Source: Brachyspira hampsonii
Lineage (GTDB): Bacteria; Spirochaetota; Brachyspiria; Brachyspirales; Brachyspiraceae
Direction: 5' to 3'
NCBI RefSeq assembly: GCF_002214805.1
Contig: NZ_CP019914.1
Coordinates: 558,001 to 622,000, forward strand
Length of the DNA: 64,000 nt
Positions 5,236 through 51,568 of the stretch are shown here, piece by piece. Below the pieces are notes generated by a model. The model worked only from the letters and a program-made list of their open reading frames with translations, made no database searches and was not told where the DNA came from. Each line of letters opens with the position of its first letter. The stretch's first letter is position 1. The position numbers and the translations under genes were made by a program.

Positions 5236-6423
5236 TTACTTTCTCATTTTTTCAATAGCTTTTGCCAATATAGATATACCTTTATCAATATCTTCAGGTT
5301 TAGAATTAGTATAATTTAATCTCAAAGTACCTAAACCTCTCTTAGCTTCATAGAAAGGTTCTCCTGCCACTACAGCAACACCATCATCAGAAGCTTTTCT
5401 TGAAAGCTCTACAGCATCTATTCCTTTAGGAAGTGTAGCCCATATAAACATACCGCCCTCAGGGTGAGTCCAATGCATATCTTTAGGTAAATATTTATTC
5501 ATAGCCTCAAGCATATAATTGCATTGTCTGCCGTATAAATCTATTATTTTTTTAATATGAGCATCATAATCATTGTCTTCAAGATACTGACTTACAACTA
5601 CCTGAGCAAATGTTCCTGTATGCAAATCTATAAGCTGTTTATAATCTTTCATTTTGGCATACAATTCTTTTTGTCTGCATGCAATCCATCCCAATCTCAT
5701 ACCTGGAGCCACTGTCTTTGAAAAAGTACCCATTAATATAGCCTGCTCTCCTAAATATGCCCCAAAAGATTTCTGATGTTCTCCTTTAAATCTTAATTCG
5801 CCGTAAGGATTATCTTCAACAAAAAATGTATCTTTACCTTTCATAATATCAGCTATTTTTTCTCTTACCGCATTTGTATATGTTATTCCTGTAGGATTTT
5901 GGAAATTAGGCACAGAATAAAAAAACTTATGATTGTATTTATTCATAGCATCTTTAAACTCATTTATATCCGCTCCATCTTCATTCAAATTGACAGTATG
6001 AATATTAGGATTATATAAATGAAATGATTGTAAAGCTGCCAAATAAGACGGATCTTCAACTAAAACATCATCATCAGGATCTATTAAACATGAAGAAATA
6101 ATATCTAAAGCCTGCTGAGAACCATTGGTTATAAGTATGTCTGAAGCTTCTACATCAATACCTTGTTTTTTGTATCTATTGGCAATGAACTCTCTTAAAG
6201 GTCCGTATCCTTCAGTGCTGTTGTATTGCAAAGAATAAGCACCTTTAGTTTCTAATACTTTATTTGCTGCAGCTTTAATATCTTCTACAGGAAAGGATTC
6301 AGGATTAGGCAAACCGCCGGCAAATGATATTAAATCGCCTTTGGCAGCTACTTCAAGCATAATTTTTACAAAACTGCTTTGAAAATCTTCTTTTAATGCT
6401 CTTTTTGATAATCTTAATTTCAT
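5236..6423 (-). CDS. PLP-dependent aminotransferase, class I/II (2-aminoadipate/aromatic type)
   Basis: A fold-type I aminotransferase of about 395 residues, near full length for the LysN/MocR-catalytic-domain group. Motifs: ISFAGGLPNPESFP at the N-terminus, ITNGSQQALDIIS, PSYLAALQSFHLYN, VPNFQNPTGITY, the PLP-lysine segment MGTFSKTVAPGMRLGW, and the C-terminal arginine segment GTLRLNYT. No DNA-binding domain is fused to it. The ORF opens at 6435, but the ATG at 6423 is preferred because a TGGAT site precedes it at normal spacing and nothing resembling a ribosome site precedes the first ATG. It is monocistronic with its own terminator. The amino donor and acceptor are unknown. Confidence 0.88.
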   Translation of the reverse strand: MKLRLSKRALKEDFQSSFVKIMLEVAAKGDLISFAGGLPNPESFPVEDIKAAANKVLETKGAYSLQYNSTEGYGPLREFIANRYKKQGIDVEASDILITNGSQQALDIISSCLIDPDDDVLVEDPSYLAALQSFHLYNPNIHTVNLNEDGADINEFKDAMNKYNHKFFYSVPNFQNPTGITYTNAVREKIADIMKGKDTFFVEDNPYGELRFKGEHQKSFGAYLGEQAILMGTFSKTVAPGMRLGWIACRQKELYAKMKDYKQLIDLHTGTFAQVVVSQYLEDNDYDAHIKKIIDLYGRQCNYMLEAMNKYLPKDMHWTHPEGGMFIWATLPKGIDAVELSRKASDDGVAVVAGEPFYEAKRGLGTLRLNYTNSKPEDIDKGISILAKAIEKMRK

Positions 6424-9919: not shown

Positions 9920-11152
9920 TTAATTATGATATACAAGTTCTCCAGACTTAAAAACCATACTGCATAAATTATTATCCATACTATAAAGTAAAAAATTAAG
10001 GTTATCGCAATTCCATACTATAATATCAGCCTTTTTACCTGCCTCTATACTTCCTATTTCTTTACCCCTATTGATAGCACATGCTGCATTTATTGTAACT
10101 GCATTCAGTATTTCTTCTGGTTTAAGCCTGTATATAATATATGCAAGCTTCATTATAAACTGCATATTAAAAGAAGGACTAGAACCCGGATTATAATCTG
10201 TAGCTAATGCTATAGGAACTCCTTTATCTATCATATATCTAGCTCTTGCATAAGGCATATTCAAATAAAAAGAAGCATTTGGCAAAAGAACAGCTATTAC
10301 ATCCTGATTTTTTATAACATCTATGGATCTGTCATCAGACATAATCAAATGTTCGGCACTTACAGCATTAAATCTAGCTGCTAAATATGAACCTCCGCTT
10401 GTTTCTAATTGATCCGAATGAACTTTAATACCTAGATTATATGACTGAGCAGCATTAAGAACCTTATCTGTTTCCTCCATATCAAGTCCGCAGTTTTCAC
10501 AAAACACATCGCAAAATTCTGCTATTCCTAACTTTGATATTTTAGGAATCATCTCATTACATATTAAATTTATATAAGAACCTCTGTCATCTTTATATTC
10601 ATCTGGTATTACATGCCCTCCCATAAATGTACTTACTATATCTATTTTATGATTATCATTAAGTTTTTTCATAACTTTTAATATCTTTATTTCATCTTTA
10701 ACCGTTAACCCATAGCCGCTTTTCCCCTCTACTGTGGTAGTTCCATATTGAAGCATCTTATCTAATATTGGTATTGATTTCTTATAAAGTGCATTTTCTG
10801 TTTGATTTCTAGTATCTCTAACTGTAGATAATATTCCGTAACCTGATTTTATTATATCAGAATAGCTCATATGACCTATGATTATATTATATCTCTCATC
10901 TTCTCTTGAACCGCCGTATACAAAATGGGTATGACAATCAATCAGACCAGAAGTAACTAATGCTCCGTTAGCATTAAATGTTTTTTTAGCTTTTTCTTTA
11001 ATAGAATCGCCAACATACTCTATTATCCCATTCTTTATGCCTATAGAAACATTATTATATACTTTTATCTCCCCTTGTTTCTTACCGTATAAGGGGGTAT
11101 CTCCTTGTGCTGTTACAATAGAGCCTATATTTTTGATAATGATGTCTAACAT
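9920..11152 (-). CDS. hutI: Imidazolonepropionase
   Basis: Third enzyme of histidine degradation: hydrolyses 4-imidazolone-5-propionate to N-formimino-L-glutamate in the cytoplasm. At 410 residues it has the usual length. Metal-dependent amidohydrolase motifs are visible: LIDCHTHFVYGGSREDE near residue 75, EGKSGYGLT, STFMGGHVIPDEY, IKVHSDQLE, SAEHLI and ALATDYNPGSSPS near the C-terminus. It is the last gene of a four-gene minus-strand operon, 24 bp after the TSUP permease. hutH, hutU and the downstream enzymes are not in the window, so the pathway must be completed elsewhere. Confidence 0.95.
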   Translation of the reverse strand: MLDIIIKNIGSIVTAQGDTPLYGKKQGEIKVYNNVSIGIKNGIIEYVGDSIKEKAKKTFNANGALVTSGLIDCHTHFVYGGSREDERYNIIIGHMSYSDIIKSGYGILSTVRDTRNQTENALYKKSIPILDKMLQYGTTTVEGKSGYGLTVKDEIKILKVMKKLNDNHKIDIVSTFMGGHVIPDEYKDDRGSYINLICNEMIPKISKLGIAEFCDVFCENCGLDMEETDKVLNAAQSYNLGIKVHSDQLETSGGSYLAARFNAVSAEHLIMSDDRSIDVIKNQDVIAVLLPNASFYLNMPYARARYMIDKGVPIALATDYNPGSSPSFNMQFIMKLAYIIYRLKPEEILNAVTINAACAINRGKEIGSIEAGKKADIIVWNCDNLNFLLYSMDNNLCSMVFKSGELVYHN

Positions 11153-48802: not shown

Positions 48803-49618
48803 ATGGAAATATTTGAATATGATTTTATGCGTAAAGCTTTCTTAGTTGGTATTATGCTTGCTGTTATAATACCTTGCATAGGGGTGATTGTTGTATTAAA
48901 AAGACTTTCTATGATAGGAGATGCTATATCACATACTTCACTTGCCGGTGTTACATTCGGTTTAGTTTTTAACATAAACCCAATAGTAGCCTCCATAATA
49001 TTCTGTATACTATCTGCATTATCAATAGAGTTTATAAGAAAAAAAATAGCTAAATATGGAGAAATGTCTATATCAATTATAATGTCTTTGTCTATAGGAG
49101 TTGCCGGGCTTCTTTCCGGATTTGTAGCGAACAATTCAAACTTTAACAGTTTCTTATTCGGAAGTATTGTTGCTATAAGCGACTTTGAATTGAAATTAGT
49201 AATATTAATAAGTTTCATATCAATACTAATTTTCATCTTCCTATACAAAGAAATTTTTTATATAACTTTCAATGAAAGATTAGCAAAACTTTCCGGCGTG
49301 CCTGTAAATAGAATTAATTTCATTTTCACAATATTAACTGCTGTTACTGTATCAATATCAGCAAGAGCAGTGGGTGCTTTAATAGTATCATCAATGATGG
49401 TAGTACCTGTTGCATGTTCTATGCAGGTGGCTAATAGTTACAAAAAAACTATTATTTTTGCTGTACTCTTTAATTTACTATTCACAATATTAGGAATATT
49501 CATTTCGTATTATCAAGGTCTTAAACCCGGTGCAACTATAGTTCTAATAAGCATAACAACTTTTATAATTATAATATTATTAAAATCTGCTTTATCATCA
49601 AAACATAATGAAGCATAA
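48803..49618 (+). CDS. znuB: Zinc/manganese ABC transporter permease
   Basis: A 271-residue ABC-3 family permease with about eight hydrophobic segments. Typical stretches are VLKRLSMIGDAISHTSLAGVTFG near residue 40, SLSIGVAGLLSGFVANNSNFNSFLFGSIVAI, LAKLSGVPVNRINFIFTILTAVTVSISARAVGALIVSSMMVVPVACSMQVA and the C-terminal PGATIVLIS. It should pair with the ATPase and binding protein encoded at 49961-51568, but it lies on the opposite strand, converging on them across a 342-bp spacer with a large palindrome. It is 33 bp downstream of the DegT-family gene. Confidence 0.88.
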   Translation: MEIFEYDFMRKAFLVGIMLAVIIPCIGVIVVLKRLSMIGDAISHTSLAGVTFGLVFNINPIVASIIFCILSALSIEFIRKKIAKYGEMSISIIMSLSIGVAGLLSGFVANNSNFNSFLFGSIVAISDFELKLVILISFISILIFIFLYKEIFYITFNERLAKLSGVPVNRINFIFTILTAVTVSISARAVGALIVSSMMVVPVACSMQVANSYKKTIIFAVLFNLLFTILGIFISYYQGLKPGATIVLISITTFIIIILLKSALSSKHNEA

Positions 49619-49960
49619 AACTAACTTACATATTCCCGCCCTATAAATTTATAATCTAATTTGATAATATAATATCATATTTATTTTTTACTTATTCTGT
49701 TATTATAACACCCACCCTAAATTTATTTAAATTTAAAGTTAATCTCAACGCACGCAAAATAAAATTTCAAATATAATTTAATTAACAATAGAATTTAAAT
49801 CATATAAAAAAGAGAATACACCGTGCGTTGAATAAAATTCTAAATTTAATCAAAACTTGGGCGGGTGCTGAAAATTCTAATTAATCAATAAATATAATGA
49901 GTATTAAAATTGCAAAATAAATCAGAAAAAATAAAGGGCGGGGTATGTAAATAAAATTAA
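49619..49960. other. Spacer between convergent znuB and znuC
   Basis: A 342-bp non-coding stretch, unusual for holding several GC-rich blocks in otherwise very AT-rich DNA. These blocks pair with each other concentrically (see the repeat at 49626-49950). I see no open frame or RNA gene. Confidence 0.6.
49626..49950. repeat. Long concentric imperfect palindrome between znuB and znuC
   Basis: Three pairs of blocks share one centre, position 49788: TTACATATTCCCGCCCT (49626-49642) with AGGGCGGGGTATGTAA (49935-49950), one bulge and one mismatch; CACCCACCC (49709-49717) with GGGCGGGTG (49859-49867), one mismatch; CAACGCACG (49746-49754) with CGTGCGTTG (49822-49830), perfect. Around the inner pair about 20 of 26 bases match, and looser AT-rich matching continues between the blocks. 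It is far larger than a terminator. Confidence 0.75.
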
Positions 49961-50701
49961 TTAACAAGAACAAACATTGTCGCTATTAGGATGTTTATGT
50001 TTATGTGAAAGTTCATCGTATATTTGTTTCTTTTCAAGCTCTACTAAAGAACCTTCTTCAAAACAAAATATTCTGTTGGATATACTAGATATTTTTTCTA
50101 TATCATGTGTAACCATTATTATAGTTACTTTTTTTTCTTTATTTAAAGACTGTAGGATTTTATATATTAAATCAATAGTTTCTCTGTCTACCCCATTTGT
50201 AGGCTCATCAAGTACAAGTAAGTCTGGTTCTGATATCAATGTTCTCGCTAAAAATACTCTTTGAATTTGTCCGCCTGAAAGCTTTGATATCATTCTATTT
50301 TTATATTTTTCCATACCTAAAAGCTCTAATGCCTTTATAACTTTTATACGATGACTTTTATTAGGAAATTTAAATAAACCTATATCAGCAAAATTATTAG
50401 ACATAACTATTTCATAAACAGTGGCTGGGAAATTTACAATTTTTGAATATGCATTCTGCTCTAAATAGCCTATTCTTTTCCAATCTTTGAATTTATTTAT
50501 ATCTTCTTCATATAGTTTTATGCTTCCTCTGAATTGACTAATCTCACCCAAAATAAGTTTTAATATGGTACTCTTTCCTGCTCCATTAGAACCTATTATA
50601 GATACAAAATCTCCGCCATTAACATCAAAACTTATACATTTAAGTATATCATCAGAAGTATATCCAAAATGCACATTTTTAAACTCTACAATCTTACTCA
50701 T
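49961..50701 (-). CDS. znuC: Zinc/manganese ABC transporter ATPase
   Basis: A 246-residue ABC ATPase with SIIGSNGAGKSTILKLILGE (Walker A), LSGGQIQRVFLARTL (signature) and LLVLDEPTNGVD (Walker B), then VTHDIEKISS. The C-terminal tail DELSHKHKHPNSDNVCSC has His and Cys residues that could bind metal, a feature seen in metal-transport ATPases. It starts 9 bp after znuA, so both are cotranscribed; the permease znuB is encoded convergently. Energises import of zinc or manganese. Confidence 0.9.
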   Translation of the reverse strand: MSKIVEFKNVHFGYTSDDILKCISFDVNGGDFVSIIGSNGAGKSTILKLILGEISQFRGSIKLYEEDINKFKDWKRIGYLEQNAYSKIVNFPATVYEIVMSNNFADIGLFKFPNKSHRIKVIKALELLGMEKYKNRMISKLSGGQIQRVFLARTLISEPDLLVLDEPTNGVDRETIDLIYKILQSLNKEKKVTIIMVTHDIEKISSISNRIFCFEEGSLVELEKKQIYDELSHKHKHPNSDNVCSC

Positions 50702-50710
50702 AATATTATT

Positions 50711-51568
50711 CTAATTAAGTCCATTAGTTAAAGATGCAAGATTCTCTTCCATTACAGAAAAATAATCTTTTCCTGCTTTAATATATTCTTCACTTAAAGA
50801 TTCTATAGGATTTAGTGTCAATGTTTTTACTCCTGTTTCTTTTGCTATAGAATCAACTAATTTAGAACTTGAAAACTCTTCATAAAATATAGCTTTTACA
50901 TTATTATTTTTTATAAAATCAATAGTTTCAGACATAGCTTTAGGATCTGCTTCATCTCTAGCAATAGCTACCTGATTTAATAAATATTCTTTGCAGAAAT
51001 GTCCGAAAGCAGGGTGAGTTACTACCAAGTTAGTATTTTTTATATTTGATAAAACTTCTTTGAAATGATTATCTAATTCATCTAATTTATTTGCATAAAA
51101 ATTATAGTTAGAATTATAATAATCTGCATTAACAGAATCTATATCCGCCAATGCATTTTTTATATTCTCCATTTGTTTCTTTGCTTTAATAGGTGAAAGC
51201 CAAAAATGCGGATCCAATCCTTCATTACTAATATTAGATGAAGTTTCTATATATTTTAGTTCTTTTATGCTATCTTTAACTGTATCAGCCCAATGCTCCA
51301 TTCCTCCGCCATTATATATAAATAAATCTGCCTTTGTTAAATCAGCCATATCTTTTGAAGTTATTTCAAAATCATGAGGCTCTGACCCTGCAGAAGTCAT
51401 ATTATATACATCTGCTTTATCTCCACATATTTTTTTAGCAAAATCGTATATAGGATAAATACTTGCATAAACTTTAAGTTTATTTGAAGACACTTTATTA
51501 TCCTTTGATGCATTACTGCATCCTGCTAGCAATGATAATATAAAAATAATTATTAAAATTTTTTTCAT
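50711..51568 (-). CDS. znuA: Zinc/manganese ABC transporter binding lipoprotein
   Basis: A 285-residue cluster A-I metal-binding lipoprotein: MKKILIIIFILSLLAGCSNASKDN with lipobox LAGC. Metal-ligand histidines appear in TSAGSEPHDFEITSKDMADLTKADLFIYNGGGMEHW, LDPHFWLSPIKAK and VVTHPAFGHFCKEY, with an acidic ligand expected in the last lobe (IFYEEFSSSKL). There is no His-rich loop, which is common in manganese or low-capacity zinc proteins. First gene of the znuA-znuC operon. The choice between zinc and manganese cannot be made from sequence alone. Confidence 0.9.
   Translation of the reverse strand: MKKILIIIFILSLLAGCSNASKDNKVSSNKLKVYASIYPIYDFAKKICGDKADVYNMTSAGSEPHDFEITSKDMADLTKADLFIYNGGGMEHWADTVKDSIKELKYIETSSNISNEGLDPHFWLSPIKAKKQMENIKNALADIDSVNADYYNSNYNFYANKLDELDNHFKEVLSNIKNTNLVVTHPAFGHFCKEYLLNQVAIARDEADPKAMSETIDFIKNNNVKAIFYEEFSSSKLVDSIAKETGVKTLTLNPIESLSEEYIKAGKDYFSVMEENLASLTNGLN

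Follow-up and report, generated by a model that had tools for sequence, protein, structure and literature searches.

A mosaic palindromic repeat family crowded around the replication origin in Brachyspira

Locus and structure of the palindrome

The window (the whole stretch analysed: 64,000 nucleotides of Brachyspira hampsonii, assembly GCF_002214805.1, contig NZ_CP019914.1, positions 558,001 to 622,000 of the forward strand) contains a split metal ABC-transporter locus, in which a permease gene (+) converges on an ATPase gene and a gene for a ZnuA-type binding protein (−), with a 325-bp imperfect palindrome between them. Genes were called by simple open-frame rules, and neighbours were assigned with Pfam (ABC-3 permease, ABC ATPase, ZnuA-type binding protein); no NCBIfam model passed its cut-off, so zinc was not distinguished from manganese as the substrate. 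The features are as follows (window positions):

48803–49618 (+), metal ABC-transporter permease (ABC-3 family, znuB-like), convergent left neighbour
49626–49950 (−), one full repeat unit (ABC-C'B'A') bounded by TTACATA...TATGTAA, whose 'type-1-left' sense strand is the minus strand
49635–49641 (+), block A, CCCGCCC
49709–49717 (+), block B, CACCCACCC, 76 bp after A
49746–49754 (+), block C, CAACGCACG (type-2 half-unit, followed by CAA), 37 bp after B
49822–49830 (−), block C', CGTGCGTTG (type-1 half-unit on the minus strand), 74 bp after C; listed as chromosome positions 607748–607828
49859–49867 (−), block B', GGGCGGGTG
49936–49943 (−), block A', GGGCGGGG (GGGCGGG(G) facing block A)
49961–50701 (−), ABC-transporter ATPase (znuC-like), convergent right neighbour
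50711–51568 (−), ZnuA-family metal-binding lipoprotein

A sequence-only reading had described three GC-rich block pairs sharing one centre between the two halves of this locus, and this observation was confirmed: all three pairs are present and their common centre lies at 49788 to 49788.5. Excess folding stability over shuffled sequence had been set in advance as a criterion, and was found on both strands. RNA folding of 49600–49970 gave −71.3 kcal/mol on the + strand (shuffles −43.8, s.d. 4.5, z −6.2) and −93.4 kcal/mol on the − strand (shuffles −57.7, s.d. 4.8, z −7.5), and 0 of 100 shuffles reached either value. No intrinsic-terminator-like site (compact GC stem followed by a U-tract) was found in 49560–50020; the palindrome resembles bidirectional intrinsic terminators in being hairpin DNA between convergent genes, but is long and interrupted, has no U-tract after the stem, and has conserved blocks rather than covarying stems. 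An Rfam search of the window gave only two tRNAs above the gathering score, and no family for the palindrome.

Recurrence in the genome and the genus

The palindrome is not a singleton. Recurrence of the blocks in related genomes had likewise been named beforehand as a test; the element matched at least 91 places in its own genome (40 of 388 first-look candidates were scored) and all 18 same-genus genomes searched first, with E-values from 1e-146 down to about 1e-3. Alignment of copies showed a fixed lattice of GC blocks: A–B 77–78 bp, B–C 36–37 bp, C–C' 74–76 bp (mean 74.9, s.d. 0.7), then C'–B'–A', and in longer arrays 41–43 bp from A' to the next A, a period of about 345 bp. An exact C–C' pattern found 109 modules in this genome and 23–138 in 23 of 26 Brachyspira genomes; the remaining three (G006, G010 and G031) hold none, and the backwards-pattern control was 0 in every genome. 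In 1.26 Mb of sampled genome 55 arrays were found, against 0 in five third-order Markov simulations, so the lattice cannot be chance (CCCGCCC reads the same backwards, so that reversed sequence is not a valid control for the lattice, and the simulations and the exact-pattern control were used instead). In the GTDB collection the pattern fell mostly in Brachyspira; hits in other genomes were single, scattered matches, mostly in GC-rich genomes, and were regarded as chance, as was a hit on a viral contig (L324) from a GC-rich phage.

The two arms are not equal copies. The base after CACG and the middle base of CCC[G/A]CCC are anti-matched between the arms, and two related half-unit types were distinguished, A1 CCCCGCCC / B1 CACCCGCCC / C1 AACGCACGGT and A2 CCCACCC / B2 CCCACCC / C2 ACCGCACGCAG. 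Oriented alignment resolved these as H1 (A1 TTTACATACCCCGCCC, B1 CACCCGCCCAAG, C1 AACGCACGGT) and H2 (A2 CCCACCC, B2 CCCACCCAAG, C2 ACCGCACGCAG), placed as H1 followed by inverted H2. Longer arrays run strictly head to tail (0 of 11 multi-unit arrays mix direction). Arrays begin and end at different blocks, the commonest strings being ABCC' (about 197 bp) and ABC-C'B'A' (about 308 bp). On the sense strand the A and B middle bases are inferred to be G.U-compatible, on the other strand A.C; the G.U-compatible bases could reflect RNA pairing.

Placement between genes

Junctions were analysed in 1.26 Mb of evenly spaced samples, on which all junction-level statistics rest. Of 56 arrays, 55 were intergenic, and arrays occupied 22/129 convergent, 21/659 tandem and 6/125 divergent junctions (convergent against the rest, p=7e-8). 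Convergent gene ends next to arrays had a canonical terminator within 100 nt in 12/68 cases, against 128/356 elsewhere (p=0.003); counted by junction, 8/34 against 93/186. At some orthologous convergent junctions without the array a simple hairpin stands in its place (stretch L150, about 10497–10513, where it is terminator-like, and stretch L214, about 5512–5557). These data, with the folding of both strands and the lack of a terminator-like site between the two convergent genes of the window, speak for an RNA-level element, in which a large hairpin at mRNA 3' ends would stop transcription or protect the transcript from both sides in place of ordinary terminators between convergent genes. Against it, array direction was random relative to the flanking gene (9 same, 15 opposite), several arrays have a terminator next to them (L009, L022), and the two arms of an element show no compensatory changes. 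A long hairpin acting on both mRNAs, one of the proposals of the sequence-only reading, is only partly supported; as an explanation of the family this is possible but rather unlikely.

Position relative to the replication origin

Three parS-like sites lie within about 0.9 kb at 1.676 Mb, around which GC skew changes sign and gene strands diverge. A clustering at the terminus, first suggested by the map of copies, was rejected, since parS, GC skew and gene strands put the origin, not the terminus, in the middle of the cluster. dnaA lies at 2.958 Mb (2957824, stretch L110), about 1.28 Mb from the parS/GC-skew origin (1676260), in agreement with the statement in the B. intermedia genome paper that the Brachyspira origin follows GC skew and is not linked to dnaA (PMC3163572); parS gives independent support for the relocated origin proposed there. 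Modules per 0.2-Mb shell from parS numbered 40, 33, 11, 7, 6, 3, 0 and 0, with 9 more on the right arm beyond 0.74 Mb; at least 90 of 109 lie in the origin-proximal half, and the terminus-side 43% of the chromosome holds 9 of 109 (p=6e-16). The gradient held within convergent (p=8e-4) and tandem (p=1e-3) junctions alone, and the RNA-level explanation does not account for it. It recurred in the Brachyspira genomes G009 (p=1e-7), G017 (p=4e-5) and G013 (p=0.007), and was weaker in G007 (p=0.055); in these species it rests on best matches to one copy or on sampled stretches. Array direction agreed with replication arm in 41/62 cases in this genome (p=0.012) and 25/37 in G009 (p=0.049), but in 14/26 in G007, 7/12 in G013 and 8/21 in G017, so that a general relation to replication direction was dropped.

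One C–C' module (1676281–1676362; stretch L112, 1522–1603) sits between the two parS sites that mark the origin, both here and in genome G003 (B. hampsonii; stretch L117). The two parS sites are 198–207 bp apart in this genome, G003 and G009 but only 111–115 bp apart in G007 and G015, which suggests that the module is absent there. The coincidence has a naive chance near 2% and is one event; it is noted rather than relied on. Two modules at 803243 and 2541030 are 90.8% alike, inverted, and almost equally far (0.87 Mb) from parS on opposite arms, possibly the footprint of an origin-symmetric inversion through these repeats.

Evolution and conservation

The znu copy is orthologous in at least eight species (next to znuB) and is closer to its orthologues (81–94%) than to any paralogue (at most about 78% in its own genome for long matches), so it descends vertically. 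In G005 (contig C16, stretch L139, downstream of znuB) it is split near its centre by an unrelated insert of about 325 bp that carries a GGGGCTTTGCCCC hairpin, possibly another repeat family. Comparison of znu gene order across species, a check proposed in advance, showed that genome G012 is an empty site, with znuB, about 26 bp, and convergent znuC but no palindrome. The convergent split thus does not depend on the palindrome, and the proposal that it is a relic of the inversion that split the locus, for which only its place between two convergent halves of one transporter speaks, is contradicted by this site and by recurrence of the repeat at about 100 unrelated loci.

Among 390 orthologous flank pairs, 345 kept array length; the rest differed by about one period (340 bp), about one ABCC' unit (220 bp), other amounts, or full absence. 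Nearest-paralogue identity had a median of 77.5%, with no sign of recent spread; it was higher only for tandem neighbours, one segmental duplication (two array pairs 226 kb apart, 1408765–1409933 and 1634875–1636042, 94–99% identical with matching flanks) and the ori-equidistant pair.

These data bear on a selfish non-autonomous mobile repeat (MITE/BIME type), spread in an old burst by a transposase acting in trans and without host function, its origin bias being an insertion preference or a dosage effect. The hundreds of dispersed copies across the genus, clean presence/absence polymorphism at orthologous sites (G012, L269) and the terminal TTACATA/TATGTAA inverted ends speak for it. Against it stand the absence of near-identical dispersed copies, arrays that start and end at different blocks, strong conservation of block G/C bases, a 5–10-fold gradient steeper than a twofold dosage effect would give, and the absence from the genome of a Y1/RAYT transposase (Pfam PF01797, which was detected in 5 of 14 control genomes). 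No target-site duplication was evident at the G012 site or in the other filled/empty pairs inspected, but the flanks are AT-rich and diverged, which leaves this point undecided; a parent IS with ends matching TTACATAYYCCCGCCC (TTACATA...CCCGCCC) was not sought. The sequence-only reading was thus right in guessing a repeat family, whereas its MITE-like mobility is unproven and a functionless mobile repeat is considered unlikely.

Over 13 orthologous pairs at 8 sites (two species counted twice, so about 11 independent pairs, which is few), block G/C bases were 98.3% identical, spacer G/C bases 62.1% and spacer A/T bases 91.9%. At the znu locus alone, block columns were 93.8% identical against 60.4% for spacer G/C columns (p=3e-9). 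Covariation had also been named in advance as a test, and none was found between the arms: the two arms of an element complement each other no better than arms of different elements (0.477 same element, 0.482 shuffled, z −0.7). The blocks and the C–C' spacing are kept and stem pairing is not, a pattern that fits protein-read DNA sites better than an RNA hairpin.

Discussion

Taken together, the interpretation given by the sequence-only reading was partly supported, and the palindrome is best read as one member of an ancient, genus-wide, BIME-like family of intergenic mosaic repeats in the gut spirochaete Brachyspira that is now mostly static. The analysis demonstrates the lattice, the two half-unit types in inverted orientation, the intergenic and convergent placement, the concentration round the parS/GC-skew origin in several species, conservation at orthologous sites, strong conservation of block G/C bases without compensatory arm changes, and copy-number change by whole periods. 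It is by inference only that the blocks are taken as DNA sites, most likely bound in a phased array by a protein not yet identified, and that the family is taken to be kept round the origin for chromosome organisation or segregation, in the manner of (not as a member of) Noc or SlmA sites. The reading of the spacings as helical phasing (42 bp about 4 turns, 36.5 and 78 bp about half-integer turns) is also inference. At convergent junctions the same array would probably also serve as a two-way barrier or 3'-end signal, perhaps insulating convergent genes, and an early burst followed by inversions symmetric about the origin, which keep the distance to it, would explain why the gradient is old and shared. 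This explanation is held to be about as likely as not: no binding protein is identified and neither occupancy nor expression data were at hand, depletion of canonical terminators at array-bearing convergent junctions suggests an RNA or termination role instead or as well, an origin bias could also come from insertion preference, and three Brachyspira genomes do without the repeat. A further possibility, which is not excluded but held to be rather unlikely, is a genus-specific chromosome-organising code, in which helically phased arrays of three GC-box types, laid in a gradient about the origin, would be read by a Brachyspira protein to mark, condense or segregate origin-proximal DNA, as a nucleoid-occlusion or origin-domain system unrelated in sequence to Noc, SlmA or MatP/matS.

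The nearest described repeats are BIMEs (bacterial interspersed mosaic elements) made of REP sequences, which are likewise extragenic, high-copy, regularly spaced units in alternating orientation with two related unit types, convergent/unidirectional placement and size changes by whole units (PMC2817692, PMC3733652). The family is not assigned to REP/BIME, because its units are about 170-bp half-units carrying three non-palindromic GC blocks instead of 20–40-bp palindromes, no GTAG/CGTC tag is apparent in the consensus and no RAYT-type transposase is present; its copies also crowd at the origin, whereas most REP families are described as spread through the genome (PMC3733652). Noc-binding sites of B. 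subtilis and SlmA-binding sites of E. coli are dispersed chromosomal sites under-represented in the terminus region (PMC4726725), as are the modules here, but those are single short palindromes (about 14 bp for Noc) bound by a known ParB- or TetR-family protein, while the present sites are multi-block arrays with no known protein. Bacterial MITEs (Correia, RUP; R0/R2 of P. fluorescens SBW25) are also small, non-coding, intergenic inverted repeats in many copies, and the SBW25 repeats also leave repeat deserts (PMC2718517); here, no target-site duplication was evident in the AT-rich and diverged flanks, no parent transposase was found, although an IS with matching ends was not sought, there are no recent dispersed copies, ends are modular, and the gradient is tied to the origin rather than to strain-unique regions.

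About 100 copies per genome of a conserved, phased, origin-centred DNA array appear to have gone unremarked, since the genome papers of B. hyodysenteriae, B. pilosicoli (95/1000 and B2904/WesB) and B. intermedia mention no such repeat and no description was found in the open-access full texts searched. Interspersed palindromic repeats are usually treated as selfish or as RNA stabilisers. A family tied to the replication origin, with selection on blocks but not on pairing, offers a concrete case in which a chromosome-scale role can be tested, and it also gives a marker for the origin in Brachyspira, where dnaA is far from it.
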